Origin: Eutreptiella sp. 'Long Island Sound 2002'
Lineage: Eukaryota; Euglenozoa; Euglenophyceae; Eutreptiales; Eutreptiaceae
Length of the DNA: 64,000 nucleotides
Direction of reading: 5' to 3'
NCBI GenBank assembly: GCA_964036045.1
Contig: OZ038382.1
Coordinates: forward strand, 2,440,612 to 2,504,611
The notes beneath the pieces are model-generated. The model searched no databases and was not told the DNA's origin. It saw nothing but the letters and a program-made list of their open reading frames with translations. Positions 7,901-55,900 of the stretch are shown here, piece after piece. Both the position numbers and the translations under genes were made by a program. Numbering within the stretch: the first letter of the stretch is position 1; each line of letters begins with the position of its first letter.

Positions 7901-10900
7901 AACTGCTTAAGCAATTTTCCACCCCCTACAGGTCAAAAATGAAAAATTTCAATTTTTTTTTTGATATTTTGACCATTCAAAATGATTAAATATCCTATGT
8001 AAAGCATGTTTTAGACCCACTTTGTGTGTTTTTCACCCTATTTGGGTGTTGGAGGGGGGGGGGGGGGGGGGGGCTCCCAAGGGGGCTGGGGCACAACCTG
8101 CTTATGCAGTTTTCTAGCCTCTGCAGCTCAAAAATGGAAATTTCCGAAACTGATTTTTTTTGATCTTCTGACCATTCACGATGATCAAATATCCTATGTG
8201 CAGCATGTTTTAGACCCTCTTTATGTGTTTTTCATCCCCCCACAGGCAGCATAGAGCACAGCACACATTGCACAGCACCACGGTGCACAGGCAGCACGGT
8301 GCGCCGCGCACGGCACACAGTACCATGACACACAACACCGCGCATCGCACAGTGCGCTTGCACCATAGGCACTGGTGAGCACGGCGCACAGTGCACAGCG
8401 CCCTAGCCGGCCAGTGCCATTGCGCTCTGGCCGCCAGGCCACTTCATTCTCCAAGAACTGCCAATGCGGCAGCCCCCCTCGACGAATCGCCCCCCTGGGG
8501 CGCCTGACGTTGTAGCGCCGGCGTCCTCGGGGGCCACGTCCGTGCCTAGCCTGGGGCACGGAAGGGCGAGCTCGGAAGAGACATAGTCTTGACCGACTCA
8601 TCCCTCTGGGCCGCCATTCTCTACAGGTGGGGGGCGCAAAACTGTGTGATCAGACCTTCCCCCCAAGCCTACATAGGCTCCAGGACAGTAATAGCACAAT
8701 ACCGTCTTTATGTATCTTTCACCCTATTTGGGTGTTTGGACGGGGGCAAGGGGCTGGGCACAACTTGCTTCTGCAGTTTTCCAGCCTGTGCGGCTCAAAA
8801 ATGGAAATCACCTCGAAGAGAGGTTGTTAGATCAAGCGCAGGCGCGGGCGTCGTATACCCCCCCCCCCCTCTTTTTGGGGGTCATTCGCGTAGCACACCC
8901 CAAGGCATGATATTTGATGTCCAACCCCTTGTGTTATCATTATTTTGCCCAATAACACAATCCTCCAATGGAATTTTTGATTTTGAGGCCTCTATCCCCT
9001 GAAACTGGATATCACTTTTTTGGGGTGGGTGGGTGGATGGGTGGGTGGGGGGAGGGGAGGGGGTCAAAAGTTTGTGCTCAGAAGTTTGTGCTCAGCGGGG
9101 TTTGGACGAGGGTCAAATTGGGTAGGGATGACTTGTCGGCCGGCGCTGCCGGTGGTCTGCCGACCGGGAATCGAACTGCCGACCTCCACGTCTGCGGTTG
9201 GGTGCATTACCGTTCGGCCGTTGCTTGATCTGACAGTATGTGTGCTCCCAACTGCTTGAAGCCAAGTCTGCCACCGAAAAAACCCAAACTGTGTGTTTCT
9301 GTCTGCCCGTCTACCTGCCTGCTTGCCTGACTAGCTCACTGATTGGTTGACTATCAGCCTCTCTGCGAGGTGCAGTGCCTGACTAGCTCACTGATTGGTT
9401 GACTATCAGCCTCTCTGCGAGGTGCAGTGCCGAAGGCAATAGAATTTTCTGAAACTGATTTTTTTTTGATATTCTGACCGTCACAACGATCAAATATCCT
9501 ACATAATAAAGCATGTTTGAGACCCTCTCTAAGTGTTTTCACCCTAGTTGGGTGTTGGCGGGGGCGGGGGGGGGGGGTTATTGCTGCTGTGTGACGTGAT
9601 GAAGTCTTGCCTGGTGCCAAGTGGCACTCCTAGCTACCCTGTACCAACCAGCATATAGTCGACGGACCGTAGGTGTAGTGGACTGGAGTCGTCTATTCGT
9701 TGTCTCTTTTGCTACAGTGAAAAGCGCCTATGACATGTCATTGAAGGTCTCTTCTTTTTTGGTGCATTTGTCGTGTAACACCGTTCTTTGCTCGCCAACG
9801 CAGAGTCGTGCACACGCATCTATTTCCCATAGCGGGGTGGCGGCTTCGAAGGGGCTGGGGCACAACCTACTTATGTAATTTTCTAGCCTCTGCAGCTCAA
9901 AAATGGAAATCACCTCGAAGAGAGGTTGTTAGATCAAGCGCAGGCGCGGGCGTCGTATACCCCCCCCCCCCCCTTTTGGGGGTCATTGGCGTAGCAAAAG
10001 CATTGCAAAATCATTATTTTGCCCAATAAAACAATCCCCCAATGGATTTTTTGATTTTGAGGCCTCTATCCCCTGTTCACTTTTTTGAAGGGGGGGGGTG
10101 GGGGGGTCAAAAGTTTGTGCTCAGAAGGCTTCAAGCAGTGGGGAGAGCCGTTCCTGTCAGAATAAGTAGCGCTCCAATGGTAGTGCAGCCGACCGCAGAC
10201 TTAGAGTTCGGCGGTTCGATCCCCGGCCGGCCGGCTTTCGTTGGCGCCGGCGCCACGATCGGCGGACTGGGGTTCGAATCGCCGACCTGCAAGTTTGCGG
10301 TGGGCTGCTTTACCACTAGACCGCTGCGCGTTCTGCAGTAGGTGTTCTCCCAACTGCTTGAAGCCGAGTCTGCCACTGAAAAAAAACCCAAACTGTGTGT
10401 TTCTGTCTGCCTGCTTGCTTGCCCGATAGACTGTCTGACTGACTGCTGGCCTGACTAACTGACTGATTCGCTGACTGTCAGGCCCCTCAGCCTCTCTTTG
10501 AGGTGCACTGCCGAAGGCAATAGAATTTTCAAAACAGGCTTTTTTTTTGATATTCAGACCATTAACAACGATCAAATATCCTACGTAAAGCATGTTTTAG
10601 ACCCTCTTCATGTGTTTTTCACCCTATTTCGGTTTTGGAGGGGGGGTGGGGGGCTTCTCAATGACTTCGTGACGAACTGACTGATTGACTGACTGTGCAC
10701 CCTCCCTCTTCGAGGTGCTTTGCCGATATGCAATAAAAATCACCTTGTAGAGGTTGTTAGATCAAAGCTACGCAGGCCTGTATAGGCCCGTATACAGGGG
10801 GGAAAACGCCACATACCCCCCCTTTTGGGCCTTTTTGGGGCTATTCGCGTACCCTACCTCAAGGGGTTGAATCGTTTGTAAAACCCGTTGTAAAATCATT

Positions 10901-13900
10901 ATTTTGTCCAATAAACGCATCCCCCAATGAGTTTTTGGTCCGGACCCCCCTAGACCCCCCCCCCCCCCGCCCCATTTGAAACCCACCTTTTTGAGGTTTT
11001 GTGTGAGGCGGGGGGGGGGGGTGGGGGGGGTCAAAAATGTCGAAAAAATGACCCCCCTTTTTTTGGGTCGAAAATCATGAATCTTCCCGTCTCCATGGGG
11101 TTTGTATGGGGTGGAGTGGGATGAGCGCTTGTGTTTTTCACCCTATTTGGGTATTGGGTTTTTGGGGGGGGGGTCAAACGGGATTGGTACACAACCTGCT
11201 TATGCAGTTTTTCAGCCTTTTCAGCTCAAAAATCAAAGTTTCCGAAATTTATTTTTTTGATATTGTGATCACCTAAAATGACCATCCAAGATATGCAAAG
11301 CGTGTTTTAGCCCGTATTTATGTAGTTTTTACCCTATTTTGGGTGTGTGTTGCTTGGGGTAAATTCTCTGCGAGGTGGACTTGCCGAAGGCAATAAAATT
11401 TTGCGTGTTCTCCCCCTCTGCAAAGTGGAGGTAAGGGTGCCACGGGGATCCAGTATACAGCCATCCCTTACTCAGCGACAAGTGAACAGTTGCAGGAAGC
11501 ACCAATACAACGTGGTTACCACAAGCTTTCTGATGGCAGATTCCAATGCACTCCCCGAAAATCCACCCACCCCTCTTCAAGCAGCGCCCCCCTCGGCCCT
11601 GGAGGAAATGACCCCTGTGCGCAAATTATGACAGAGTCCAAGATCCAGTAATTCCCAATCTTCCCAATTTTCCTGAAGGGCGGAAGGAAAACCAGCTCTT
11701 TCCAGTTAGACCTGCATGAACTTTTGGGATCTGGGTATGATTGGGAAAATGCCAACTTTCCGCTAGGATCCAGCTCGTGTGTTCCTCTTCCCGCAGACAC
11801 CCGGGGACTGCTGAGCAATGCACCCATGCTGGCGATCAGTGCAGCCGCCAAGCAGATGTGACCAGACTTGATGCTAGTGTGCGGCGGGTGGTTGTTTGCG
11901 TCTGGCGGCGTCCGGCAGAGAAGTGGTTCTGCATCTGCCGAAATCTGGCAGGGAGGTGGGCTGGCTTGTGCCGACGTGTGGCGACTCTGAACGGCGGATT
12001 TTTTTCTTCCCCTTGTGCTGTTTTTTGCACCTCACTGGCATCCCCCCCCCCCCCCCCTCCCCGTGTGCCCGCGTGCCAACCTGGGCCCTTTACACCGACC
12101 CCCCCCCCCCCTGGGGTTTGCATTTGTCTGTTTTTTAATTAGGTCACACCCCCCTGGGGGGGGAGTCTGTGTTTTTCCACCCCATGTGTCTTTCCTCAAA
12201 ACACTCGGAATTTCCAGGAGATCTGAATAATGGATGAAAAAAATATCGGACCGAATAACACCCCTGAGCTGTACTTTGTCAGAGATGGCCCATACCCTGT
12301 ACTTTGTCAGAGATGGCTCACAGTGATTAAACAGTGTATTCTCTATTGAGAAGTCCCTGCTTCAATTCCTGGTATCAGCAAATGCAGGGTGGTGCAGACA
12401 ATGGCTGGGCTGAATTCCAAACTGTTCGGAGGTGCCCAACATTTTTCCACTGGCATGTGACAGGCGTCTGTGACGACTGGCAGGGGGGTGGGCTGGCGTG
12501 TGCCGAGATGTGGTTTGCTGCACACTAGTAGCAAGTCTGCATGTGACCTCCCGCTATATCTACTAGGCCTATGCCGGATGGCAGGCTGCAGAAAAGACCA
12601 ACGACCTCACGTACTGCGTCCGGCATGCGTTGTGTCCTGAGACCCTTGAAATGGTGAAGGTGTGCCATGGGGCCCGTTGGGTCTCTGTTTGATGATTGTT
12701 TTGAGATGCGTTTCCTCTCTGATATGCCTAGACTGTAGTATCACGTTTATTGCGGTCTGCACGTTGTCTGCACATTGTCGTTGATGTTGAGTAGTGCCAG
12801 GACAGATGTAGGGGATCGGGGACACCAGTGAAGGGTGTTGCACGAGAGGCCAGCTCCAGGAAAGGTACAGGGAGCATGCACAAATGTAGGCGGAGGATGG
12901 CCACAGCCACAGCAGCGGCTGGGCACGAAGACCGGACAACCTCCGCCCTGAGGAGGTTCTCGCCAAGGTGAGGGCACAAGTGCAGAATTTCGGATTTGCT
13001 TGGGTTCAGACACCTCTGGCCATGATGTTAGCGGAAAGCGCCCCTGACTCCGGGACCCATGACCCATCCTGGTGTCCCTCCCACACACAGACTCCGTCCC
13101 CCCAAACAACACACAGCCCGGAGGCATGCCTCTACAAAAAGCAACCAAGTGTGTTTAACTGGAAGTACCCGGTGGCAAACCTACTCCACTTTTATGGTTC
13201 ATTGTCCCCCCCACCCCCTCCACATGGTGAGCAGCTACATGGCTACATGGCTCCCCATGGGTTTGCATGTACTCCCAATGATCACCCAACCCTGGCCCAA
13301 GGGTCCCTGTGGTTGCCAAGCATCACCCAAAAACTGTCTTTCTACTAACACATATGCAGGTCATTTTGGGTGCAAACGGTGGTTTTGCGTCTTTCAAACG
13401 GGCCATGACCAGCGCGAAGGAAGCCCAGAGACTGCAAAACTAGCATGGGCATCCTAGCATGGGTATGCTGTCACAGCATCCCCTACCCCCCCCTCTAGGG
13501 GGGTTACCAAAGGGTCACCAAAGCCGCCAAAATGCCGCCGACATGACAAAAATTGCGGACAGTTGCATAAATTGCACAAGCACTTGGGACAGAAAACACT
13601 TTTTTGGCTCAAAAAATTGGGAAAAAAACCAAAAGATTTGTGATTGTTGACCCCCAAAAAGGCGGGTCATTTTTTGGACCCGCCCATGGTGGGTTTCAAC
13701 ATGTCGCAAATCCCCTCGGCATGAAATGCAAGGGCCGGAAAGTCAAATGGGCCAAAAAAAATTTCTTAGACATTTTGTTCAGCGCACCGCTTCGAAAACT
13801 GGAGGCGTCCGCTGCTTGGAAAAAGAGCTTGGAATTTTTGATGGGCGAGGGTGCTTGGGAAAAGTGCTTGCGAGGTTGCATCCGAGGTTGCCACATGGGC

Positions 13901-34900: not shown

Positions 34901-37900
34901 AGGTGCCGCCCTGCAATCATTTGCCGTGGTTTTGTGCTGCGGTGGTGTCATCTCCGATGAGTTCGCATCACCTGTTGTTTTGGCCCGCGCACGCCGCCCC
35001 TGACAGAGCACGCACACGCAGAAACACACACCACACTCAGGTCCAGAGGGGCAGTGCGTTGGTGCCAAATGGCAGATCTGGACCTGTTTTTCTATGGAAG
35101 CATCCGTATCGCTAGCTCTTTCTACACTCGGGTTGTGTGTTGGATCCTCCCCTGAAACTGCCCGGATGGCGGTAACCACCGCCAAAGCACTCAAAAGGGT
35201 CTTCTTGCAAGGGATTCGGGGCATGGGGATGCCAGGATGCAGGGCACATTAGAAAAGAGCATGGATTGTACATAATGCACGTCTTCTGTGGTGCAGAGAG
35301 GGAGGAAAGGATGCACGGAAGCGTCAAGTATGCGTCGACATTGACGTGCAGCGCAAAACAACACAAAACCAGAGCCGGCTGAGAAACGCATCATGGCAAC
35401 GAAATTGGTTGCACGGTGTGAGACCCGGCTGCAAGTCAAGAAGGAGGACAAATGGAACAAACACTTATGGGACTGGGATTGATCGGTGGTACAATACAGA
35501 CTGACCTTCTGCATTTCCACCGAGGCCACATGGCTACAAATAAGTACCGCACCCCCTCAAGTGGCAGAGTCTGAGAGGACACGGGTTGCCAAATTGGCCG
35601 GCGCTTTGCCAAAACCTGCGGCCCAACCCAAGCCTTTGCAGCAAAGGTCATGGGCCTCTGCTTGTGAAGAAGGAACGCAATGGAAGAGAATTGTGTTTTC
35701 TGTCAATTGCAGATGGATTTGATCTCTGCTTCAAACTGCCCACTGTACTGCCCGGGTCTTTGGTATTGGTCAACCTGCAACCTGCCCAATTGTTCCAGAG
35801 GCTGTTTTTCTCCCGCAACCCCCTTCAATTATTCATCCCCCTGTGTGACATTCCGTCTGGTTGTTGCTCCTTTACGGGGCCCTGGACGGTCACCCGTTCT
35901 TCCCTTCGCATGTTGCGTCGGGTCGCTGCTTTCTGTCGGCCGCTGCGGCCCGTGCTCTTGCTGGTGTCGTTTCCGCGTTCGCGGAGCCCAGTAGTTGGTG
36001 TGTTGGGGCTGTGCTGGATGTGGCATGGTGTGCCGTTTGCGTGTCAGCGGCGCCCAATAGTTGGCGTATTGAGGATGTGCTGGTTGTTGCCGGGGTCGTT
36101 TGACTGTTTTTGCTGTCCACACACCTCTGTCCACAGGCCGTCCATAGCCTGCCTCGCTGTGTTTCTGTGTGCGCGAGGCCCAGGTGCCCTGTTCCTCCAC
36201 GCGCTGTCCGGGCCGTCCACCATATGTGCTTTCAGCCCCCCCCCCCCCCCATTCCCTTACTGCCTTGGACTTGCGGCTGCCGATGTGCTTTGGGTTGCAG
36301 ATCGCGATTCGGGCGCTTCTCGCCCGCGGTCAACCCCAGGCCAGACCGAAGTCGCTTGGCTCCTCATTGTCGGCAGTGCCCTGCGAGGGGTCCATGCGGG
36401 ACCCTTCCTCTGCGGTCCTCTGGCCGAAGTGCAAGCGAAGAGACCTTGCGTGGCTGTTCGTATGGTGACGCGTGTTCTCGTTTGGGGGGCTAATCCGCAA
36501 GACCGTCGAGGCCGGTATACACACAACCACACCCAATGTGTGCGTGCGCACGCGCGCGCGACCGCTTTCACTGCGTCTCGGACAGGGGTCAGCGGTGGCC
36601 TGCATCCCCGACTCCAGCGCGGGGTAGCCTCCGACGCCCTGATAGGCCAGCTAGTCCGCCTGGGTGACAGAGGGACCTTCAGGAACCGTCAATATGGTGA
36701 GTGAACACACACCCAACCCAACCCAACCCGCCGTTTGGGGGGTATTCCCAGGGGTGCAGCTGGACCCTTCCCCCTCCCGCTCCGCTCCAACTCAAAGCAT
36801 CGGCTTGCGGGAGCCCGCAGCACAACGCACACCATTGGCCCGGCAGAGAAGCGGCAGGCGAGGTATTCGGAATCGAGGAACCCGTAGCCCTCCACCAACA
36901 CCCACTGGGGCGTTGCATAGTACCCCCGAGTGGGAGAAAGGTGGAGGACGGGGGGCGTGGGCACGCGGCGCAGAGGCACTTGGTTGTCGGTGGGCAGCTG
37001 CGGAAACAGTTGGATCTCCAGCGCCTGTGAACAGGGGCCGGGAGAACAGGACATCCCCACAGCCAACGGCCGAGGGCACGGGGATGAACACGGAGGGGGG
37101 CACTGCTCTGCGGAACTCTATTCCGCTCAACCATCACACAATACCCGGAGGGCCTGCGACTACGTGGTCACCGCCGTCGGCTGACAGGCCACTGTCGGTG
37201 AAGCATCATCAGTACCGGTGTTTAGTATTTGGAAGTAAGTTCAGCAAGAACATGATTCATGTGATGTTTGTGGTTGCGTTTGTGCAAATGTACATGTGTC
37301 GGTCAACAGTGTGTGAACACACTGATGAGCAGCCGCCGGTGGGAGTTCTCACATTTGTAGAGGATGCCCGAAAGTGGTGATCTTTGGGAACGATTGAAAA
37401 AAAATAGACATTTGAGGTCACGCTTCACCCACATCAACGGGTCAGGTCGCAATTGTGTACGTTGATCTGTTTCACAACTTCGCTCTCTCAAGGGAAGAAA
37501 GACGGCAAAATGTGGTAGGGAAATACACAGTTGTTTCTTCTCCTTTTGCAGCCAATCAGGATCCATCGAAGTCACAATTCATACAAAAAAAGCTGAAAGC
37601 AACACGAGTTGATGGTTTAAATACAATTGAAGAAATTGCCCCTGGACGTCCCACTCGGTCCCCCATCCCAATTAACGACTTGACATGAAGGTCAATTTGT
37701 GCCAGGCATTACTATGGGATCAAGAAGCCCCCCCACGTTTGCACAGGTGCAATCTACTGGACAGCAGGTTGCAAGGAGGTACTGCAGGCGGAAAACTCAT
37801 TTTCAGGCACTAAAACACCCATAGCCCACACACACGAGCCGTTTTGGCCACGATCTGCCGCGCTCGCGTTTTGCCTGCGTTGCTCGACCAACGCGTCACG

Positions 37901-40900
37901 GGGCGTGCCAGGGGCAACACCCTCGGCACATTTAGAGGGTGGGCATTGTGGCCGCATTGTTCATGACGTACCCCTGCGCCATTCGATTCATCACCTCTGA
38001 CAATTTTCGAGCACTCCTACACTTGCGAACGACACTCCCCAGGGCACAGACGGCAGAAATCAGCCACGTTCCATATGCCGCTCAGCAGTATCCGCCCCTG
38101 TCGCAACCAGACCTCAGCAAAAACCAGCTGTGCCCCGTGTCAGGCACAGGATCCAGCTCCTTCCGATCCCGCCGGACCTGGCAGACGCCAGCAGCCGGTC
38201 TGCTCGAGCATGACTGCGCACAATCAGGGGCTTGCGCGGGAGAAGGGTCGTTCGAGCCCCTTTCCCGGGACCCCCCACCCCTTCTGGGCTCCCGTGACGG
38301 GGTCCCCCGATGGGCTGACGGCGACCCGCAACGGGCTGAGGGAGGGGGGGGGGGGTCGTGAGGTACCACAACATATAGACTCAAAATGATCCCCCACAAT
38401 GCGCTGATCATTTTGAGGTACGTATCATGGGAGAAAATTTTTTTGAAAAAAAAAACTTCTGGGCTGCTTCGCGGCGCAGTTGGTGAGTCATCATTAGAGG
38501 TTTTAGACTAGCCTCTTGGGACTGGCCTGTCACGAGAGCCCCTTTCCCACCCCCCCCCCCTCCATTGGGGGGGCTCGAATGATCCCCCTCCCCCCCCGCG
38601 CAAGCCAACTTTCCCCATGGCCCAGGGCACCCCCGCTTCGTGTGCTGGAGGGCACTGGGATGACTCTGGGGCACAGACAGAGACGATGGGGATTGTCCAT
38701 TTCTTCCTTTTCTTGCTGATGCCCATTACAACGATGTGTTGAAGATGTAGGATTGCTGGGCAGATGATGGCCGGTGGTTGCTGACCCGATTGCCAGACCC
38801 ATTGCTCAACAACGTGCTGCACAACATGCCGAAGCTGCTGCTGCACGAGCTGCTGGGCTGGAGAATGATGCATTGAGCTCTGCTGGCTTCGTGTCAGTCG
38901 TCCGGCCGAGGAAAAGGAGGAAAGGAGGCGTCTAGGAGAGGGTCAGGGGCTGGAGGCAGCGCGGTCGTTGCATACCTCTCCCGTGCAAATGTCGTACGAG
39001 GCGTTCGTCTGCGGAGTGTAGCACTGGACGGTGGACAAGGACTGGAACGTGGCGGGGGTGGTCACGCCTCCGGCAAAGAAGCACTCTGTGAGGCCAAACT
39101 CCCTCAGCCCCTCCCCAGTGATGTTCAGAAGTGTGCCGCCCGCCACGTCTGCCAGAGGGGGCTCGACGCGGATGACGGCGTACAGCAACAGCGTAATGAT
39201 CATCGGCTGCTGCCCAACACTACTCAGGGCGTACAGACGGCGCAGAGATTCGTCCTTTTCAAAGCTGTAAACGACCTCCTGCTCCCCTGAGGCATGTGTG
39301 CAGTGCTATTGCGTGGTGAAGGGAGGGGCGGGGGGGGGGGGGGGGGGGGGCAATGCGCCTCACCCACCCACTGACTCAACCACTCAGCCCCACCCAAAAC
39401 CCACTTCCCGGGGCGGGTGGGGTTGGCATTACGCCTGCAGGGGGCGGGGGGGTTGACCCACTTGCTGCCAGGGCGACATCACAAGCACCATCCCCGGCAG
39501 CCGCGGGGCCAGCAATCCCCACCAGCCACTGCCAGCCACCCGCCACATCGGTGACACAACAGCACCGCTGCCATCGATGCTGAAGAAGCCACTGAACTGC
39601 ACTGAACGAGAACGACGCGCTCCAGCTTCGGTCTTGGTGGTGGTAGACTGCTGCAGCATCTGCCTCCTGCGCTGTTCATCAGAAGGCACACCTCGCCAAA
39701 ATGGCACGAAAATAGCCCTTCAACTCACACGCACGCAACGACTACCCCCCAGACCCAAAAACCCCAACCCCAGCCCACGCCTTCCGCGAGGGGCGAAGGA
39801 ATTTCGACCAAAAGTGGCCACTGGCCGAACCGTTGCACCCGATGGGGCCCAGGACACCCCCCCTGTGTGACATTCCGTCTGGTTGTTGTTCCTTTACGGG
39901 GCCCTGGACGGTCACCCGTTCTTCCCTTCGCATGTTGCGTCGGGTCGCTGCTTTCTGTCGGCCGCTGCGGCCGGTGCTCTTGCTGGTGTCGTTTCCGCGT
40001 TCGCGGTGCCCAGTAGTTGGTGCGTTGGGGCTGTGCTGAATGTGGCGGGGTGTGCCGTTTGCGTGTCAGCGGCGCCCAATAGTTGGTGTATTGAGGATGT
40101 GCTGGTTGTTGCGGGGGTCGTTTGACTGTTTTTGCTGTCCACACACCTCTGTCCACAGGCCGTCCATAGCCTGCCTCGCTGTGTTTCTGTGTGCGTGAGG
40201 CCCAGGTGACCTGTTCCTCCACGCGCTGTCCGGGCCATCCACCATATGTCCTTTTCCCCCTCACGGCTGGTCTGCCCCTGATGGGCTCCCGCTCCTGTTG
40301 CGCAAACAGCCCATCTGGGCTGCGGGAGACACCCCCCACCCGATGCCGGTTGAGCAGGGGTTGCCCTGGCACCCGGTAGCGACGGGGCTGGCTGGCCAGG
40401 CCATCCCCTTTGTTGTCGCTGCCTCCCATGTGCACGCTCCACCATTTGCTCCATTCTGGTTCCCTGTTCCCGCCGTTCTGGTAGCCTCTCCTGCCTTGCT
40501 GTGCCCCTCCTCCTTGTCTGGTGTGCCCGCCCTTGTCCCCCTTGGTGTGGCCCCCCCCTTTCATGACAGGGTGTCCCTGATGGAACCCCCAAAATCTTGG
40601 CTGCCGTCACAACACAAAACAACAGCCGGATACCGGACGGCGGTTGGGGTGACCGACGGCGGTTGATTCCACACGAGGATTCGGGCTACAGCGGACCCAA
40701 TGCCTGAATCCCCTGAAGCAAAACACACCCACACTGCACCAACTCAGGCGCGGCTCCCACAGTGAGGGCCCCGTCCTGCAGGCTCCCCAGCAGCAGCAGA
40801 AGTTAGAGGAACAAGATGGGGGACGTGACACAGGCAATGCATTGCATGGGGCACATAAGTAGGGACATGAGAGCAGCATGTTTTGGGAAACTGTTTTACG

Positions 40901-43900
40901 TAAATGAGACTTTGATAGATCCCTTTTTGAAAATGAGTAATGCAGTAGTCAATGAGACTTACGAACGACGGTACACGCACCCTCCCCCTTGTGAAAAGTA
41001 CCCAGCCCTACACCACGTGACAGGCACGGGCTGAAAAAGCGGCTTCGAGGGTGGTGGGGGGGGTGGGGTCAAGGGAGAGTGTTGGAGATTCCTAATGTCT
41101 TTCACTTCGTGAGCGCTTGCAACGAAGACGCATACCAACGCAGAGAGTAGGGCACACCGTTTGGCCCTTTGGCAGCGGGATGGTAACGGGGCAGATCTGT
41201 GCCCCAGCGCGAAATGAGATGCACTGCCCATCAGCAACAAAATATGTGCCATGGCAAGAGCACGCGTCCGCCACAATGCACCACGATCGTCACAGGACGC
41301 ATGCAAAATGCTTTGCCACGATACCACACGCCGCCGGGGCTACAGAAGCGGCAGGGCGCAAGGCCACACCTGCACGGTCGCGCAACTTGACGATGCCATA
41401 CGTAATGAGGGTGGTGGCGTTGATCTTGTACACCCAACTGGGCCGAGACTGGGGCCGGGCCGCCACAAAGACCGCCCCCAGCACCGAGTCCATGGCCATG
41501 GCGGAGACCATCTCGCCCAACCTGAGGTTTTGGGTGAATTGGAAGAGTCAGAACGGCAACTTTTGGCGGGCATACCTCCCAGGGACCACTTTTTGGCACT
41601 TGACATGGGCGGTGGAAGATTTTTCAATCCTGCTATATAGTGGCATGTGGTAGGAAGGGGAAAGGCACACTAGCAGTGATGAATTTGCGGAATTGGCGCA
41701 TCAACATAGGTAGGGAATGCGCCCGCTCAACTTCGTTGATGGGTGTGTGAAGAGGATCCAGGTTTGGATATTTACACAAATTAATTTGATAGCGGCTTAT
41801 AATTTATCCACACAGTACCGGCCATGAATATGTTTGGATTTCCCATGACAGAGAAATGGCTTGTGGGCCAGCAGCCACTCCTTCCGACTTTGGGTTCTGC
41901 TGGCGAAATGCGCCGAAGGGTCCGTCTTGATTGATCCGTTTTCGTCAAAACGATCTTGATGAGGACCCTGCGGGAAGGGCGCCGAACTGGGGCGTCATTC
42001 GGGGGATCCTGAAGGATCCTCACCCCATTGTTGGCAACAATTCATGCTTCGATGAGGGAAAAGGACAGGCTGCCAATCTCCAACAACAACCATTCAGCAT
42101 TCTGCATGTCCTACACGTCGCAGTAATGTCTGCGGCACCTTCTCCCCCCTCCTCCCGGGGGGGGGGGGGGCAATCTGATTGATGATGGCGATGCTGAGGG
42201 AGGATTGCTTCGTCCAATAGTTCTGGAGTGGAACCCCCCTTCAGGGGCTCGTTGTACCATCGACATTTGGTGGCTGACGGTGCCCAGTAGTTTTGTCGAT
42301 CTGCGGCTGCAACCAAACCCCCCCCCCCCCTTCCGCCCCCCTCCCCCCCACACACACAACCCCAACCAACGACCCCAAGCAACAAAAGCAGGTCGCCCCA
42401 AAGACACGGCACTGCACCAGTTGTACAGTTTACAGACCCTCCCTCCTCCCCAACACGCCCTGAATGCGTCCTCGCGTAGGGGGCTCGGGCAGGGGGGGGG
42501 CAGTGTCGTAGATGAGAGTGGGATGTCTGGCTCGGGCCCGTTCTTAGAAAAGGCGGCAGGGGGGGGGGGGGTAGGAGGGTGAGATCCAAGGGTTTGTGCA
42601 CCAAAAATGGCCCGAAAATCTTTTCCCTTCACAAAGTTTAATCTTTCCCCCTGAGGAATTGCTGACGGACCCGGGGGGGGGTCTGAGGAGGAGACGGGGG
42701 GGGGGGTCTGAGGAGGAGACGGGGGGGGTCTGAGGAGGAGACGGGGGGGGGGTCTGAGGAGGAGACGGGGGGGGTCTGAGGAGGAGACGGGGGGGGTCTG
42801 AGGAGGAGAGGGGGGGGGTCTGAGGAGGAGACGGGGGGGGTCTGAGGAGGAGACGGGGGGGGGTCTGAGGCGGAGACGGGGGGGGTCTGAGGAGGAGACG
42901 GGGGGGGGGTCTGAGGAGGAGACGGGGGGGGGTCTGAGGCGGAGACGGGGGGGGGGTCTGAGGAGGAGACGGGGGGGGGTCTGAGGAGGAGATGGGGGGG
43001 GGTCTGAGGAGGAGACGGGGGGGGTCTGAGGAGGAGACGGGGGGGGGTCTGAGGAGGAGACGGGGGGGGGTCTGAGGAGGAGACGGGGGGGGGTCTGAGG
43101 AGGAGACGGGGGGGGGTCTGAGGAGGAGATGGGGGGGGGGTCTGAGGAGGAGACGGGGGGGGTCTGAGGAGGAGACGGGGGGGGGTCTGAGGAGGAGACG
43201 GGGGGGGGTCTGAGGAGGAGACGGGGGGGGGTCTGAGGAGGAGACGGGGGGGGTCTGAGGAGGAGACGGGGGGGGGTCTGAGGAGGAGACGGGGGGGGTC
43301 TGAGGAGGAGACGGGGGGGGGGTCTGAGGAGGAGACGGGGGGGGGTCTGAGGAGGAGACGGGGGGGGTCTGAGGAGGAGACGGGGGGGGTCTGAGGAGGA
43401 GACGGGGGGGGTCTGAGGAGGAGACGGGGGGGGGGTCTGAAGAGGAGACGGGGGGGGGGTCTGAGGAGGAGACGGGGGGGGGGTCTGAGGAGGAGACGGG
43501 GGGGGGGGGATGGCGACCCTCCTCCGCGCCATGTTCCGATTCGAGGCCAAGGCGGTCTGTCGCTGTGTCCATTCCTGCCGCAGTCTGCCCTCGTAGCGCC
43601 CACTCCCCTGCCAGCGCTGACCAGCTTTGAAATCGCAAGGGGGGGGAGGGGGGGAGGGGGTTTTGGACCCAAAACTTGGTGTACCAAAAATGGCCTGACC
43701 AGATTTTCCCTATTGTAAATTTCGTTTTTTCCCACGATGGTCACTTTGGTCTGGGGAGGGGGGGAGGGGGTTTTGGGGGAGGGGCCCCCCCCCCTCCCTT
43801 TGGTTTTTAATTATTCTAAAGAAGCCCTGGGGGGGGGGGGGGGGCAGGGGGGGGCGAACAGGCCAAGAACCATCGCCCCGTCACTACATCGGGTGTGACG

Positions 43901-46900
43901 CACTTAGCAGCTCAAAACATAGATATAGCACCGGTTGTGGCAGTTGGTATTGCTGCCCTACCCCATCCAGAAAGCACCTTCCCGAAACGGCAGGGTCCCT
44001 TGATGACGGAGGCATTCGTGTGTATGCCCATCTGACTTGGGTGCGCAGGTGAGGGCGAGGGGGCGTTAAGAACACTTTTCAAGGGTTACCAATGCACAGC
44101 TTTCACTGCGTCTGGGGCCTGCCTCTGCATCATCCTGCAACCCCAACGTACCCCCCACCGAATCGGAGGCCATCCCACTCCCTGTCACCCGGTGCCTTCC
44201 TCGTGGCACTGGAGGTGGAACGTGTGCCCTCCTTGTGGCTTTTGTTGCGCCGATGAGCTCCGTGTCCCTATCCATGAAACCACAAAGACAAAGCCTGAGA
44301 CTTGGTGACCCCCCCATTGCCCCCGTTCGATTTTGTGGAGAGACGGCCCCCCAAACCGTAGGCGGGCGGCGCAGCACAGGGGCTGCTCGCTGCCCATGAG
44401 CGGCAAGGCGCTGCCGTGGGTCGCGCTCCGACAGCGACGAGCGACTACTTCTCGTCGCCTTCCGCGGCAGTTCGAGGGCGGACAGAGGCCACCGTCCGGG
44501 GCAGTGCACCGCAACACAATGCGTGTGGCCCGTTGGGGCGCTGGTGCGCACGCCATTCTGAAGGCAGCGCCGGCCCCCCCTCCTCCCGGACCCGGACCTG
44601 AGCACGTGCATGTCCTGTGCGCACGCGCCCCGGGACACGACCCCGTGGGTCACTGGCACGCAAAACGCCCCCCTCTTCGGGACGGTTGGCAGGGGAGGGG
44701 GGGGGGATTGCGGTCAGGAGCGTCACAAACAATTGCGAAAAATTGCGGGAAATGCCAAAAAAATTGCCAAAAAAATGCGGGACAATTGCGGGAAAATTTG
44801 GGGTGCCGTAACCAAACCTCCCGAAGCCTCAAAGAGCAACACTTCTGCACAGGGGACACAGGGCACCAACGAGCACGCGCGGTGGACAAGCGAAAAGCAA
44901 TTGCGGAAAAATTGCGCAGAATTGCGGGAAATTACGGACCTCAACACCCCCCCCCTGTGTGACATTCCGTCTGGTTGTTGCTCCTTTACGGGGCCCTGGA
45001 CGGTCACCCGTTCTTCCCTTCGCATGTTGCGTCGGGTCGCTACTTTCTGTCGGCCGCTGCGGCCGGTGCTCTTGCTGGGGTCGTTTCCGCGTTCGCGGAG
45101 CCCAGTAGTTGGTGTGTTGAGGATGTGCTGGTTGTTGCCGGGGTCGTTTGACTGTTTTTGCTGTCCACGCGCCTCTGTCCACAGGCCGTCCATAGCCTGC
45201 CTCGCTGTGTTTCTGTGTGCGTGAGGCCCAGGTGCTCTGTTCCTCCACGCGCTGTCCGGCCCCCCTCGCGCGCAGTCTCGAGTGGCTTGGCATTGGGAGA
45301 ACAGATTCGACACAAATGCCCCGAGTACGCCCGCCGCCGGGCGGCCCGTTGCACTCGGGTCCAGGCGCTCGTCTGCGGCGTGAGCTCGCGGTTCGGGCTC
45401 GAAGTGTTCCCACGGAACGAGGGCCTTTGTGTCAGACGATGCGGGGGATGCAGCGGCCATACCGCAGGCTGCCCAAGGGGGCGGTCAGGACCACGGACCA
45501 GTCGCGCAGGTCCACCTTCGCCACCACCAAATCGCGGTCGTGCTCCAGGGCCATGAAGAGGGCCCCCGCCCCGACCACAACGCCCCCGAGGGCACGGCAG
45601 GGGGTCGTCGGGCCGGCGCAGTGGGGGCGGAGCTGCGGGGCGAGGGGCGTGTGCAGCGGCGCGGGGGGACTGGGGAGCGGGAGGGCGAGCGCCGTGAGCT
45701 GCCACTGCGCGTTCCACTCGCCCGCGAGGAGGAGCACCGTGCGGTTCGCGTGGGGGGACCAGAGCGCCGAACTGCGGGAGAGACAGGGCGGGAAGAAAAT
45801 TGCTCTGCGGGGGGGGTGATACGGAAGCCCCCCCCCCCCCCTGTGTGACATTCCGTCTGGTTGTTGCTCCTTTACGGGGCCCTGGACGGTCACCCGTTCT
45901 TCCCTTCGCATGTTGCGTCGGGTCGCTGCTTTCTGTCGGCCGCTGCGGCCGGTGCTCTTGCTGGTGTCGTTTCCGCGTTCGCGGAGCCCAGTAGTTGGTG
46001 TGTTGGGACTGTGCTGAATGTGGCATGGTGTGCCGTTTGCGTGTCAGCGGCGCCCAATAGTTGGCGTATTGAGGATGTGCTGGTTGTTGCCGGGGTCTTT
46101 TGACTGTGTTTGCTGTCCACCCCCCCCTCCCTCCTTGGCCGCCGTGACGGGAGGGGGGGGTTCAGGGCGGGGGCGCCCGACCTGCCGTGCCGGGGGGGGG
46201 GGGGGGTTCCACCCAACATCTATGGCTCAAAATGACACCCACGTCGCGCTGATCATTTTGACTACTCAAATGTGGGGGGGGGGGATTATTGGTGGAAAAA
46301 ACTTTTTTGGGCCAAATTTTGGTGTTCCTGTGCCTTTGGCGCCAACATCCATTCTTACACAAAACAAAAGGCCCGACACGGAACCCCATTTCTCCAACAC
46401 CCCCCCCCCTCCTTCGGCGGGCGTCCATGTCACCCCCCCCCCCCCCGGAGAGCAATTTTCAGGTTGCCCATGACGTGTGCTACATCCTACGTGGCATCGA
46501 CACCGCCGGAGCCTTTGCGCGGAGTTTGAAGGACTAGAGACCGGGACGCCCAGATTTGTAGTTTCCGGTGACTGAGAGGGAGGGGGCCTGGGGGGGGGGG
46601 GGGTGGAGCCATGTGGGCAAACTGGGGACCGGGGATTGGATCCGGTGGTAAAAGCGTGTGGTGGCAGGAAGGGGGAGTGGGGGGGGGGGGGAGAGGGCGG
46701 GTCGGGTCCGAAAGAGGGAGGGAAGATGGAGGAGAAGAGGGAAAGTGGGAGGCGAGAGGAGGATGAAGGTGAGGCGAGGGAAGAGCGCCCGGCCGATCTC
46801 CGGATGCCCGCACAACCCTCCGTACCTTCATCCCTCGCGACGCCCCATCCCGCACGCGGGGCCGCAGATATCGTGGCGCCCTGAACCGTGCGTTCTCGGG

Positions 46901-49900
46901 GGTACCTCAGCCGGGGTTCAAACCGGGGACCTCTGGTTCAGGTGCCATATTGTACGACCGCTGGCCCTGGCCACGCGGCGCTGGGCTACGACCACCTTCG
47001 AGGAAGATCGTGGGGGAGACAGCACAGAAAAGAGGAAACGAGGAAGGGGGGCCGAAGGAAGAAAAAAGAATCCCCATCCCCTGCGTAAACCCCCCCCCCA
47101 AATTTAGTACCCCCCCATATTTAGTACCCCCCTGGCCCTATTGAGCAGTCTGCCAAAATTAGTACCCCCCTTGAGTCACTGTCACTGTTTCCATTGTCTC
47201 CATTGTTTTCCTCCTCCGAAGATGTCTCAGAAAGTTCATCAGACAAATCAGCAAGTCCTGGGTCTACCGCCTGCAGCTCAAAATCAGATTCAGAATCTGA
47301 ATGTTCCATGCAGCCAACAGAAAGACTCAACAGACAACATCGCAGGCACACAGGGCTTACAACATCGCAGGCACCCAAAATTAGTTCCCACCCCCAAAAT
47401 TAGTACCCCCCATATTTAGTACCCCCCCCCGGCCTTATTGAGCAGTCTGCCGAAATTAGTACCCTAGGGTACTAATTAATGGGGGGGGGGGGGGTTTACA
47501 GGCACGCGCACAGAACCTCCGGACGGTGTCGAGCTGCAGCTCCGACGATGTCAGGGCGTACTGCGCCGTGAACACGCCTTCGGTCGTGAATACATTGAAG
47601 TCGCACTTCTGATCGCGGCAGAGCACTTCGTAGACGGTGCTGCCCACCCCAAAGACCCGGACAAAGGGCGTGGAGGTCGCCTGCAGCGCGTCAAATGGGA
47701 AGGGGGTAGGGGGTCACGCACAGTTATGCACGTGAGATCCGGATGCCAACGCCCCCACTTGGTTGTGGAGGGTTGTGGAGCGTTATGGAGCATTGTGGAG
47801 CGTTGTGAAGGGTTGTGGAGGGTTGTGGAGGGTTGTGGAGCGTTATGGAGCATTGTGGAGCGTTGTGAAGGGTTGTGGAGGGTTGTGGAGGGTTGTGGAG
47901 GGCTGTGGAGGGTTGTGGAGGGTTGTGGGGCGTGGAGGGTTGTGGAGGATTGTGGAGGGTTGTGGAGGGTTGTGGAGGGTTGTGGGGCTGTGGAGGGTTG
48001 TGGAGGGTTGTGGAGCGTTGTGGAGCGTTGTGGAGGGTTGTGGAGGGTTGTGGAGCGTTGTGGAGGGTTGTGGGGCTGTGGAGGGTTGTGGAGCGTTGTG
48101 GAGGGTTGCGGGGCTTGCAACGGAAACAGCCCCCATTGAGCGTCCCAAAGCAGTGAGCTCCCCTCGAAGGCCCGAAGGTCCTTCGTCGGGGTCGATGGCC
48201 CTCCTGCAAAGTGAACCGACAAAGCCTCAAGCCCTAAACTTGCACCTCGAGACATAAAAGTGTAGCAAAAAGCCTGTCATATATCCCACGGCCTTGGCCA
48301 AGACATACGGCTCGACCTCCGAGGCCACGGTGATACTGAAATGCTGTCCGCGCTTTGGGGGAGTGCCAGCCTCCAGGGGCCCAGGGGGAAGTCAGGCCCG
48401 TGAATTCCAGCCTCGTGCCCGAAAGGGAGGGAGGGAGGGAGGGACTGAGGCCCGATGGAGGGCTCCCTGCAGACAACAATGGCACACTTTGTCGGTTGCC
48501 CACGGGAGCCAAACGGTCCAAATTGCTTCGCGAAAACCGGGTCTTGGCGCTGGAGCGGGCGGAGAGGGGCTGCGGTGTGTCTGCCCAGTGGTCACTTAAG
48601 CCACGCGGTTGGCTCTAATTTGCGCCTGGCGACCGTGACCTCCACTGCCCACAGTTCCATGACCCAAAATGCCGTCCACAGAGTACCGGCCGCACTGCGC
48701 AATGGCACGTACACAGACGCTTCCTTTGGTGTTCTGCGGTGGGGCTGGGCTGAGTGCCCTCAGAACGCGGGCTGTGTACACGAGGGTCTGTTCATTGGGA
48801 CCGTTCCTTTCCGCCGTCCACGGGAGACGAGCGCGTGCGCTGGGGTGGAGGCCACGGATGCGCCTCCGAGAGGGATGCGGCCGGTGGGCCCAGGGAAGTA
48901 GAACGGGGGGAGGGGGGGGGGTGGTCTGGGGGCCCGAACGTGCGCGTACCAAAAATGGCCCGACCAGATTTTCCCAATGGCAAATTCCGTTTTCCCCCGC
49001 GACGGTCACTTCGGTCGTTGGAGGGGGGGGGAGGGGTACCACCCCCTCCTCCCGCGGTATACGGCCCTTCGAATACTTCCCTCGAGTGGCCCCGGCACCA
49101 GGTCGGCCCTCGGGAGCGGGCACCAGGCGCCCCAGCAGCGCCCACAAGACCGTCAGGCGGGAGTGTCCGGGGAGGCGGGCGGGGGATGGGCGGTGGAATG
49201 GGAGTCGCCCGTCGCAATTCCACAAACACTATTTCCGTCTTTTGTAGACTTGGGTCCGGGCCACCCCCGGGCCATTTGGGGGGAGGCTTCAAGACAATCC
49301 GGTCAGTGCAGCCCGTTTGGGGGGCGGGGGGTCCGGCCAGGCCCCCCCCTGTGTGACATTCCGTCTGGTTGTTGCTCCTTTACGGGGCCCTGGACGGTCA
49401 CCCGTTCTTCCCTTCGCATGTTGCGTCGGGTCGCTGCTTTCTGTCAGCCGCTGCGGCCGGTGCTCTTGCTGGTGTCGTTTCCGCGTTCGCGGAGCCCAGT
49501 AGTTGGTGTGTTGGGGCTGTGCTGAATGTGGCATGGTGTGCCGTTTGCGTGTCAGCGGCGCCCAATAATTGGCGTATTGAGGACGTGCTGGTTGTTGCCG
49601 GGGTCGTTTGACTGTTTTTGCTGCCCACGCGCCTCTGTCCACAGGCCGTCCATAGCCTGCCTCGCTGTGTTTCTGTGTGCGTGAGGCCCAGGTGCCCTGT
49701 TCCTCCACGCGCTGTCCCGGCCGTCCACCATATGTCCTTTTCCCCCTCACGGCGGGTCTGCCCCTGGTAGGCTCCCGCTCGTGTTGCGCAAACAGCCCAT
49801 CTGGGCTGCGGGAGACACCCCCCACCTGATGCCGGTTGAGCAGGGGTTGCCCCCCCCCCCATCCCCCCGCGACGAGTCAAAGTCCGGGAGCCCCAGCACC

Positions 49901-52900
49901 AGAAATGCATGATCCGCTGGCGCCGCGGATCTTGACACGCACCTGCGTCACCATCGGCCTCCGCCGACGCTGTGCATTCGGGGGCGCCTCCGCGTTGTTG
50001 ACGTACACCGGGTGCGGTCCGCGGGTCACGAGCGCCTGGAACACCGTCCCGGAGCCGGGCGGTTGCACCAGAAAATGCAGGTACCGCGTGCCGACGAACC
50101 CGGACCTGCACCGCGAGCGCAGGGGCTGTGTGACGGACTGACGGATGCGGTGCCGGGCCGGTACAGCCGCGGGGCATCGTGCAGGGGGAGGCTTGTACGG
50201 CTGGCGTTGGGACTGGCACGATGCGATAGGGGCTTTGGGGGACACAGGGGCTGTGCTGACGGGGCGACGGGGGGGGGGTGCCACATGGGCAATGGGTTTG
50301 TGACAGTGTCGATGCTCCAGCCCACAACGAATGGACCGCCTTGAATTCGGATTCACATGCGGTCCATAACACGGACTTGTGCGGCATCGCCGCAGGCCGC
50401 ACCAATCCAACGCATGGACTTGGGCGGGCTGGGCTCCGCCTCCTCCCCCTCTTCTGTGCGCACGCGACGGACGGCGTCGCGGGAACAACACCTGAAGTGT
50501 TGTCTGCCGAGGACCGTTGTCTATGCGCAACACGACGACACACGTGCACGGACATTATGCGCTGCCAAGGGCAGTGCGGGCGCAGGGAAGGGGCGCCCCC
50601 CCCTCAACCGGCACTGTTGACGATCAAGCGCCGTCAGCTACTTATCAACCGCCTTCAAGCAAACCTCAACCGCTGTTCGAAAACCGCCGTCTGGGCTGCC
50701 CTGAGCGCAAGCTCGAGAGAAAAAACGAGGGAAAAACGTTGTATTGAACTTCTGTGGCTACTTCTGGGCCCTCTGCACCGGCCATTGCCTTGCGTCAGCA
50801 ATAGCCCTGTGGCATGTCACAGCCAAACCATTGTCCGAAAAGCAGCGTCAAAAAGGGGGGGCTCTTGGGTCTTGAACGTGGGGAGACTGGGAGCGGGGGA
50901 TCAGAAAAGCGGGTTTTAGTCACAAGGCTATCAATCAGCCACCACAAAACCCGGGGCCTCAGGCTTTTTTTTTCGGGGGGTACGGCTCCTTTTAAAAGGC
51001 GGGGGTCTAGGGTGGGTGGGTGGGTGGGTCCAGCCCCCCCCCCCCCTCCCCCGCCCCGAGTGGTGCTGAGGTGCCGAAAGCGCGGAAGAAAACCTTTGAT
51101 TGGCCGTAGGCCCGGAGAAACATTTGGTCCATTCACTTCAGGGGGTGGGGGGGGGGGGTTAAGGGGGGGAGGGGGGGTAGTGTGGGACCCCCCCCCAAGT
51201 GGTGCTGAGTTGCAAAAAGGAGCCCTGGGGGGGCGGGGGGGGTTTAGACAACCGATTTTTGAGCCAAGAAATTTTGGTGCAACTGCGATTGCACTGCCAA
51301 GCAGCCGTATGGAGCTGCGTGCCCTCAGACACAAATGCCACCGCCGCTGGTCAGTTTTGTGGACTCATTAGCCGAGTCCTTGTGGGGGGAGGGGGGGGGG
51401 CGTTCCTATGGAATGGCTCTACTGCAGCCCCTCCCGTCCCTTGAATCCCTCAGTACTCCGGTAGGCACGCTTGGGTCGGAAGCGGGGCCACTTGAACTAA
51501 AGAAGAAAAAAAGTCCCGGCCTCCGCTAAAGACTGCCGGCCGACCGCCGTTGCTTGGCTGCCAACTGCTGTCAGTCACCTGCCGGACGGGCGTTCTTCAA
51601 AGGGGCGGTCTTTTGTAAAAATACAAAACAATCCTCAGAGAAATGTCGTGTCCGCAAGCGATTGTGATGCATTGCAAGACTTTGCCTTCCCAAAGGACAC
51701 CTTTGGTGCAGCCGGAGGGGGAGCAGCGGGGGGGGCGTCCAGAGGCGGGCCGGGGGGGTATGCGTGTTCACTCCCGGGGCCTGTGCGCACCCAAACCGGG
51801 CCACACATGGACCAGACTTTGTTTATAAGAGGGGGGGGGTCTTTTGGCTCTGAGACCCACCCGCCAAAAAAAAATCTTGACCCAAAATTTGGCTGAGGGA
51901 AAATCAAATTTGAATAAGCGGCCCCTTTGTGGGACCCCCCCAGACCCCCCCCCCCCCCCTTTGGTAGTAATTCCTTATAAACAAAGCCTGACATGGACCA
52001 GGAGTGCGGCCAACAATGGTCAGGTCGCTCTTCGGGGCGCAGAGCCGGGCCCAAGCCCTTGGACATCGCGTTCCAGGGCAATGGCGGGGGGGCCTATGGC
52101 CCATTCCCCGACCATCGCCGCGCGCGCGCGGGCAACAGCCGCCTCCCGCGCCCGAACGCGACGAAGCAGACCCCCACCCTCCGGGCCTCCCCCGGCGCCG
52201 CGCCCCCCGGACCTGATGGTGCCGCCGAGAGAAAAGCCGCGGAGGGCGCTTGCGTCGTCGCTGTCGAACACCAACAGCGGCTGCCCTCCCGAGTACATCC
52301 GGCGGTGCGCCACGTCCACCACCACCGCCCCGTCGCCGGGCCCGACGGGGGCCACTTGTGTGGCCGGCGTTTCTCGGGGCCGCGAGATCGCGACGTTCTG
52401 GGCCCGGCACAAGGGCTCCAGGTACCCCGGCGCGCAGCTGTCGCAGTGGTCCCCGGCCCAGAACCCCGCGTCCTGAGGGCATGGGACAGGGTGCCGTAAT
52501 GAAAAAAAAAAAACTCGGAGTGTCCAATACGCCCTACGATGGCGGCCGGTGGGTAACCGATGGCCATTGGTGTGTAACCGATGGCGGTTGGTGGGTAACC
52601 GATGGCGGTTGGTGGGTAACCGATGGCGGTTGGTGTGTAACCGATGGCGGTTGGTGTGTAACCGATGGCGGTTGGTGGGTAGCCACCAAGCATCAGAGAG
52701 TGGATGCCATAGTAAAAAAAAAAAAAGGGGGTGAGCGTCCTTATGGCACCCCCTGGACAGGGCTGTGGGCCTGGGGCATGGGGACGGGGCGAAGGGCTGT
52801 GCGACGCGGCGCCGGTGCGTGGGACAGGGGCCTTGGGCAGGGGATGGGACGGTGGGTTCACGGGACAAAGGCGCGGGCGTTGGAATTGGGGGCACAGGGC

Positions 52901-55900
52901 AAAGGGGCAGTGGACGGGGGAGAGCCGGAGAGGCGGCCCGGGGCATGGGGTGCGGATTCCGTTGTCCTCCTGGTCTCCTGGCGTCTGGGCTTGCCTGCGC
53001 TTTGGGGGGGGGGAGGGAGGCCAGTGATGGGGCGTCGAGACCGAATACCACGCGGCCGTTGGAGAGGGGCGGGTCCTAGACCCCACCCTAGACCCCCGCC
53101 TTTTAAAAGGAGCCGTACCCCCCGAAAAAAAAAGCCTGAGGCCCCGGGTTTTGTGGTGGCTGATTGATAGCCTTGTGACTAAAACCCGCTTTTCTGATCC
53201 CCCGCTCCCAGTCTCCCCACGTTCAAGACCCAAGAGCCCCCCCTTTTTGACGCTGCTTTTCGTACAATGGTTTGGCTGTGACATGCCATAGGGCTATTGC
53301 TGACGCAAGGCAATGGCCGCTGACGGTTACAAAACCGCCCGGAGGGCGTCTCGGGCGGGGGCAGAAGGTGGACTCCAACATGAGCTTCTCAAAATGGTCC
53401 CCATCATTGGCAAGTACGCGCCGCGCGGGTACCGGGTCTGCCCCGCGAGGGAAGTTTGGCCCCGAGCCCGTTTTGCGGGCGGGGCGCGCGGCGCCCTGTC
53501 TCGCAGGACCCACACCCTCCGTCCCCCCCAACAACCGGCTCCAAGGGCCCCTTCCCCCGCGGGGCGATCGGAAGCGGTTGTGGGCGGAACGGACAATCGC
53601 TCCCGGAGGAAAGGCGGGGGGGGGGGTAACCCCCTCCTTCGAGCGCAGGCGTGTCTCTTGCCGCCCCCTGCTCTGTCTCCAGCCCCCCTCCCGGTCGGCA
53701 ACGCATGGGGCTACAGGCGCTCCTCCTCAACGGCCTGACCACCTGAACTCCCCGAGTCAGCCCTGAGAAGATGCCCCCCCCCCCCCCCCTGTGTGACATT
53801 CCGTCTGGTTGTTGCTCCTTTACGGGGCCCTGGACGGTCACCCGTTCTTCCCTTCGCATGTTGCGTCGGGTCGCTGCTTTCTGTCGGCCGCTGCGGCCGG
53901 TGCTCTTACTGGTGTCGTTTCCGCGTTCGCGGAGCCCAGTAGTTGGTGTGTTGGGGCTGTGCTGAATGTGGCATGGTGTGCCGTTTGCGCGTCAGCGGCG
54001 CCCAATAATTGGCGCATTGAGGATGTGCTGGTTGTTGCCGGGGTCGTTCGACTGTTTTTGCTCCCATTTCCCCCTCAGGAACAGTCACTGACGGTCCCGC
54101 CCCCGGCTGCGCCCCTCCAACTCCAACTGCGGCTCCAAGCGTTGGCCGACTGCCGGCCCCCGAACCGCGTCCCCACCGCCTGCGGGCGGTCGCTGCGTTG
54201 GGGGACAGCGCATGTGAAGCGGGCCGCTGAAGGAGGGCCACAAAATAAAGAGAGCAGGGCCTGAGATCGGCCTTCCATTTTGAGGGGGGTCTACCAGGGC
54301 TTTGCTTGAAGGGGAGGGGGCCATCGGGGCAGTCCCAGAGCGGTTGCACAGCGGTCACAGGGGATGTGAAGCGGTTGGGGGGTGGGCGGTTACTGGCGGT
54401 TGGAAATGCGGTTGGGGCTGGCGTTGGGGTATGGGAATGCCTTTGGCGTAGAGTCAGGGCAGTAGGGGGGGGGGGGTACCCCCCCCCCTTGAAGCGATTC
54501 CCTGTCTACCCGGTCTACCGCGAGAAAAGGGTCTGACGAGGGTCGGAGTTGCGCAGGCCCGAAGGCACAGCGGTGGTCACAGTGCAACGCAGTGTCACGA
54601 TCAGCGGCCTCGTCTTCCCGGGACCAAACCTCGCAGACACTCCCACTGACGACCAACGTCTCACTCGCTCACAGGCCAACGAAACACAGACGGGCCGCCG
54701 ACAAAACCGCAACGGCACCCGCCGTCGGGCCCAGGGAATGAGACAGCCCCCCCCACTTCGCGCAACGAATTTCGTGGGGAACAGTCCGCCACCGACCCAC
54801 GGGTGTGGGGGGGGTGGGGGAGGGAGGCCAGTGATGGGGCGTCAAGACCGAATACCACCGTCACTGTCACCGGCCGTTGGAAAGGGGCGGGTCCTGACGG
54901 TTACAAAACCGCCGGGAGGGCGTCTCGGGCGGGGGCAGAAGGTGGACTCCAACATGCGCTTCTCAAAATGGTCCCCATCATTGGCAAGTACGCGCCGCGC
55001 GGGTACCGGTGCCTGCGGTGTGCAGGCTCCACAATACCAGCGCCTCCTCGTCACCGCCCGCCCCAAGTGGAATTGCTCTGTGCCCTTGCCCCGACGGCGG
55101 CTCCTGAGAGGCCCGCCCGCACGTACCCACAGCGGCGGTGGACCGTGTTGCCCGCTGAGGAAAGCGAAACCCGGGTATCCCACCCACCCACCCATATGCC
55201 CCAGGACGGGGGGGGGGGGTTTGCTTGAAGGGGAGGGCGCTCTGGGGGCAAGCTCAGAGCGGTTACGAAGCGGTTGGGGCGCGCTGTAAAATCGGTTGCG
55301 GGGGCAGTCACTGGCGGTTGGAAACGCGGGTGGGTGGTATTGGGGTTGCGGACGTGCCTTCGGGTCGAGTTGAAGGCAGAGCTTTGGGGGGGGGGGGAAC
55401 ACCCCCCCTCCCTTCAAGCAAAGCCCTAGGGGGGGGGGGGGTTGCACAGAGCTTGGTCTGCCGCCAACGGTGCCCATAGACAGCCTTCTCCTTGCCCTTG
55501 TTCCTGTTGGCGTGCAACAAAGTGTGATGCTTCCGGTGCCTCCTGTGCCCTCAAACTGCGTCGGGATGGCCCCTGACGGTCCTCCCACATTCACGTTCTT
55601 CTGTGGCCATGACGAAAGTGTAAAGCAAACCAGGTCTGCACAAAGTGGCAGCACCCCCCCCCCCCATGTGTCACAATGTGCCTCGGCCCATGAACAACGT
55701 TGGCGGTCTACCAAGCTCAGCAACCCACCCACCCACTCAAAAGAGCTGACACCCCCCACCCCTTCCGTTCCGTTCCGAACCAGAGATTCGGTGCCTTACC
55801 AAAGTCGAGAACGTACACCCAGACCACACCCGACCAATGGCATCACCGCCGCCCCCAGGCCATTGCTTAGTGGCGGGTTGATACTACACCGCGGGGGGAG

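Follow-up and report, generated by a model that had tools for sequence, protein, structure and literature searches.

Element E, a repeat present in six copies in one gene (gene 2) of a 64,000-nucleotide stretch of Eutreptiella sp. DNA, very probably forms the 3' portion of a longer retroelement, whose copies terminate in CACACAGGGG(G). The stretch, hereafter called the window, corresponds to C5:2440612-2504611 within a genome of 2.28 Gb in 2,205 contigs. According to our analysis, this large element, dispersed in the genome, very probably inserts by target priming into G tracts, with 5' truncation, and the E copies do not appear to create new introns.

Gene 2 was placed on the minus strand because open reading frames (ORFs) with IPT/TIG and EGF-like domains were found there; the protein-strand tests inside gene 2 covered minus-strand ORFs only. 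The E copies (c0 to c5, numbered on a reference of 1,930 nt) and the coding features of gene 2 are as follows.

35837..36232, minus strand: copy c0 (E 1539-1930), 3' G run at 35837-35840
38943..39305, minus strand: gene 2 ORF with an IPT/TIG domain (Pfam E-value 4.4e-05)
39857..40555, minus strand: copy c1 (E 1238-1930), the longest in the window, G run at 39857-39862
44947..45265, minus strand: copy c2, with an internal deletion (E 1553-1737 and 1747-1930), G run at 44947-44954
45475..45805 (edges approximate), minus strand: open stretch resembling an exon, located between c2 and c3, read by eye
45828..46128, minus strand: copy c3 (E 1643-1930), G run at 45828-45840
49342..49852, minus strand: copy c4 (E 1427-1930), G run at 49342-49348; a G run terminates the 5' flank
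53774..54065, minus strand: copy c5 (E 1654-1930), G run at 53774-53788
55884..56495, minus strand: gene 2 ORF with EGF-like domains (Pfam E-values 8.1e-05 to 3.3e-04, one of the three over its cut-off)

A first reading made from the sequence alone (the sequence-only reading) had described six same-orientation copies in the sense of gene 2, with one shared end and truncation at four or more points at the other, and all of this holds. The copies all lie on the minus strand, as gene 2 does, and are likely located in six separate introns. The sequence AATGTCACACAG has six exact matches in the window, all of them on the minus strand and all with a G run directly after them; self-BLAST detected no reversed copy (taken alone, 6/6 in one orientation gives p = 0.03). 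At the common 3' end, CACACAG is followed by 4, 6, 8, 13, 7 and 15 G in c0 to c5, respectively, and the 5' ends map to six distinct positions (E 1539, 1238, 1553, 1643, 1427 and 1654). The main alignments of the copies with each other show about 93-98% identity, and the second piece of c2, past its deletion, shows 88-93%; this deletion falls between internal direct repeats of E. The flanks of the six copies are mutually unrelated.

Outside the window, E is abundant. A whole-genome search for the 19-nt end CAGACGGAATGTCACACAG with zero mismatches returned 3,310 matches (1,674 forward and 1,636 reverse) and none for the reversed control; strand relative to contigs is also even among 40 E matches (20/20). 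A translated piece of E matched 1,934 ORFs at an E-value of 10 or less, out of 1,985 candidates, and the protein-level copies discussed below are the best 120 of these 1,934 (118 of the 120 come from ENA contigs). The 50 kb to the right of the window hold 6 further copies (5 minus, 1 plus), which makes 12 per 114 kb. Among the first 100 of the 3,310 ends, all on contig C1, only 5 fall in the stretch from 32 to 140 Mb, the other 95 being at 0-32 or 140-171 Mb; neighbours less than 50 kb apart are on the same strand in 17 cases versus 6, a count that includes tandems and is not proof. Exact 26-mers of E had no match in the viral and bacterial contigs scanned, nor did a degenerate E protein scan in viral contigs, collections that may omit the window's own genome. 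One copy (P0205) apparently lies within a minisatellite whose units carry G runs.

A G run is found next to the 3' end in nearly all copies. In 18/18 copies retrieved with queries without the G tail (6 in the window, 5 extra and 7 read by eye), CACACAG or a close variant of it precedes a run of 4 or more G. The same was observed for 34/34 copies of a larger set (40 matches minus 4 duplicated loci and 2 poor matches), with 5 G the most frequent, a count that is partly built in, as the query that retrieved 23 of these copies itself contained six of the G. The 5' junction also bears G: we found GGGG there in 28 of 30 copies versus 70 of 380 control windows from the same flanks (10 of 40 matches had been removed as duplicates, cut off or poor), and GGG in 34 of 37 in a separate count. 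The 5' starts are scattered across E 1-1749, and in five cases (L025, L028, P0002, P0014 and P0058) the G end of one E harbours a second E in head-to-tail arrangement. Target-site duplications are visible by eye in L003 (GGGGGCTATTTC) and in L032 (26 nt, one indel). Microhomology at the 5' junction (mean 1.49) looked strong against a naive control and not against a length-biased one, and none is claimed. Because GGGG also marks the 5' junction, the G run seems to be mostly target; it is better understood as a target tract, with a minimum of 4 G possibly coming from the element's own end, than as an added tail.

These observations suggest the following scenario. The element's enzyme would open a G/C tract in DNA, where the G end of the RNA could pair with the C-rich strand. 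Reverse transcription would then prime at the paired G end, usually halting early, and the shortened cDNA would be joined inside the same G tract. Joining of a truncated cDNA to the primed G tract would explain the fixed 3' end, the G runs on both sides and the scattered 5' ends. The sequence-only reading had offered a target-primed retroelement with a G-tailed 3' end as one of two options: the target-primed part is sustained by the fixed 3' end, the 5' truncations, the G tracts found at each junction, the dispersal of copies in the thousands and the ORF described below, while the added tail gives way to a target tract.

E itself is non-coding, with variable sites numbering 11, 8 and 7 of 129 by codon position among five window copies. 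The longest match is 1.93 kb, with an identical start base in L024 and L025; since this start lies in a repeated region, it is not necessarily the true 5' end. In C19, a full 1.9-kb E comes after a decayed ORF, which spans about 1,140 codons and is interrupted by two in-frame stops. The same ORF in C3 continues upstream into reverse transcriptase (RT) motifs, recognized by eye, and downstream into E, which was read to position 975, the end of the stretch analyzed (RT locus L064 joined to E 1-975 through L065). The two loci are 97% alike over 3.6 kb spanning the boundary between ORF and E, and both ORFs carry a Pfam DnaJ domain (3.9e-19 in C19 and 3.7e-16 in C3). The RT part of C3 matches RVT_1 (Pfam, 0.029) and a group II RT model (0.0017), both below cut-off. 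An OTU-like part of the ORF has one weak PDB match (6dx3, presumably a viral OTU, E-value 0.043), and a PHD-like part has a weak match as well (0.16). A search for this ORF gave 6,702 first-look candidates; scoring covered 64, and open frames reached 1,698 aa. The RT had no PDB match and no significant match to the long interspersed nuclear element (LINE) and Gypsy-type RT loci used for comparison. Separately, a genome RT scan gave 61,090 first-look candidates (150 scored); among those listed, many share a 1658-aa open frame and others one of 1585 aa.

Several observations weigh against a G-tract-primed retroelement. The RT was read in one copy only (C3), with an in-frame stop there, and its motif A carries glutamate (E), where D is usual. 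A GIY-YIG-like stretch seen by eye upstream of it lies in a different frame and was not confirmed by Pfam, NCBIfam or PDB. Among protein-level copies, a glycine follows the 3' end in 96 of the 105 that could be parsed (15 of the 120 could not); of the 9 without glycine, 4 are pattern misreads and 5 are real exceptions (P0011, P0019, P0042, P0058 and P0113). A glycine pair at the 5' junction is present in only 22 of the 37 protein-level copies with sufficient flank. The 5' junctions of L025 and L013 lack a G run, and one match in L028 (E 1622-1899) has neither the 3' end nor a G run there. Finally, the mean duplication beyond the G run does not exceed that of mismatched flank pairs (1.13 versus 0.71, with shuffles reaching 1.48).

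The orientation of E relative to genes was analyzed in loci with a gene strand given by Pfam. Loci outside the window had been obtained by E similarity alone, and those that yielded no strand do not enter the count. Coding and non-coding sequence could not be told apart by a gene finder based on codon usage and trained on kinase ORFs, and ORFs were therefore ranked by amino-acid composition. They were picked by hand for Pfam, with more sense than antisense ORFs among the first choices; 20 antisense ORFs were therefore added in a dedicated last round, giving totals outside the window of 36 ORFs in sense and 24 in antisense. E is in the sense orientation in all eight loci, two of which are below cut-off:

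gene 2: E sense; TIG (4.4e-5) and EGF
L006: E sense; His_Phos pieces flanking E (0.0018 and 0.0078, under the cut-off)
L019: E sense; Ion_trans (2e-14)
L020: E sense; TPR (6e-7)
L023: E sense; Ank (1.3e-7)
L024: E sense; IQ on both sides (8e-5 and 4.5e-5)
C19: E sense; NCD3G (8.9e-10; 38.7 bits versus a cut-off of 38.9)
L028: E sense; TFIIS_M (7e-10) and SAM (8e-8)

This corresponds to p = 0.008 (two-sided, at p = 0.5 per locus) for a small sample of hand-picked ORFs. None of the 24 antisense ORFs in E loci had a credible Pfam match, the best being 0.05. The sequence-only reading had counted copies equally common in both orientations as evidence against itself; the balance is real relative to contigs (1,674/1,636), whereas relative to genes E is sense in 8/8 testable loci. 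The rule is not absolute, since one plus-strand copy to the right of the window lies amid minus-strand exon-like ORFs, an unverified exception without Pfam support.

Target supply does not explain the bias, because runs of at least 5 G are rarer on the sense strand than on the antisense strand (74 versus 108 in gene 2 and 95 versus 151 in the other anchored loci). The bias may come from a strand preference at insertion or from loss of antisense copies. The second possibility, in which insertion is neutral with respect to orientation and selection later removes antisense copies from genes, has a probability that we place somewhat short of even. It has a precedent in mammals, where the orientation bias of retroelements in genes is attributed largely to post-insertion selection, according to PMC3828378; the bias described there is antisense, opposite to that of E. 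The antisense strand of E contains 0 acceptor-like sites in a simple scan versus 4.4 in shuffled sequence, and the harm from an antisense copy is therefore not obvious. A target consisting of a G run alone and a sense bias would together form a genome-wide natural record of a possible coupling between insertion and transcription, running counter to the antisense bias known from human genes.

Returning to the retroelement itself, a Penelope-like element (PLE) is our leading guess for the RT class. Weak RT model matches, 5' truncation and head-to-tail partial tandems recall PLEs, as might the unconfirmed GIY-YIG-like stretch of C3, which was read by eye in another frame upstream of the RT. The order is permuted in the Chlamys group of PLEs, and the element is possibly a member of that group. 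It differs from PLEs by its G-tract target, by the DnaJ, OTU-like and PHD-like parts that follow the RT and by the absence of a hammerhead ribozyme (none at an E-value of 5 or less in an Rfam scan of 5 loci), which is not required in every PLE. The target-primed pattern and the simple-sequence target are shared with target-specific retrotransposons that lack long terminal repeats (non-LTR); the differences are the G tract as target and the RT without significant match to the compared LINE and Gypsy-type loci. Lineages of non-LTR retrotransposons targeting repeats or microsatellites exist, as reported in PMC4640811. We tentatively raise a further possibility, which we hold to be rather less probable than not: E could belong to an undescribed lineage of retroelements that combines a divergent RT and a C-terminal region with OTU-like, PHD-like and DnaJ parts with a G-tract address and one-orientation entry into transcribed genes, for example via non-template G tracts opened by transcription. 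No G-tract-targeting retroelement or Penelope-like relative with the end of E was found in the literature searched, which leaves out most subscription papers and is thus no proof of novelty.

E could also be a non-coding passenger mobilized by a LINE of this genome to which it is unrelated. It is indeed non-coding, and most copies read hold less than 1 kb of it. However, E runs unbroken into the retroelement ORF in both C19 and C3, and the 6 kb downstream of two 1585-aa LINE copies have no similarity to E, so that we regard a passenger as unlikely.

Even less support remains for introner-type intron gain, the other option of the sequence-only reading, in which each insertion made its own intron with CACACAG as 3' splice site. 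As with introners, E copies are sense, intronic and high in number; CACACAG has AG at its end, and c3 ends some tens of bases (by eye) from the acceptor-like site CCCGCAG. However, a simple scan of both strands of E detected no acceptor-like site, and there is no fixed donor because the six 5' ends differ. In PMC9860276, introners are defined as introns similar to near both splice sites, secondary insertions being excluded. E fails to span the intron in the two measured cases, where copies lie inside longer introns with other sequence on both sides. In L024, E is about 470 nt from the upstream IQ ORF (weak, 0.043; the firm one, 4.5e-5, is farther) and about 300 nt from the downstream one; in L006, the two His_Phos ORFs lie 267 and 889 nt away or farther. 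We therefore consider this origin very improbable. E accounts for similar stretches across many introns without intron gain and is a useful caution when introners are sought. A spread of the six copies through duplicated segments of gene 2, which does have a parallel in the C7 group L013-L017, where E is carried by segmental duplication, is contradicted by the unrelated flanks and differing 5' ends and has a negligible probability. A cut-and-paste transposon was also rejected, the varying 5' ends being unfit for fixed terminal repeats.

Other repeats were observed in the window. The gene 2 region contains G-rich minisatellites at 42672-43506 (23-nt unit, 36 copies) and 47761-48108 (10-nt unit, 35 copies). 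It also contains a 241-nt inverted repeat pair (50776-51016 and 53082-53322, 99% alike and about 2 kb apart), a repeat different from E and present in both orientations. Positions 1-11500 hold a second repeat family, with many same-orientation, partly tandem copies and a long G run in the unit (TTTTTCACACTATTTGGGTGTTGGGG...). Elsewhere in the genome, a plastid-type ATP synthase ORF has as its best PDB match chain 1fx0_A, which we take to be from spinach, and the host therefore has a green-type plastid. Frames of this type occur on large contigs (C17, C22, C25 and others), perhaps as nuclear plastid DNA, and an ATP synthase ORF on the small contig C297 has a bacterial look.

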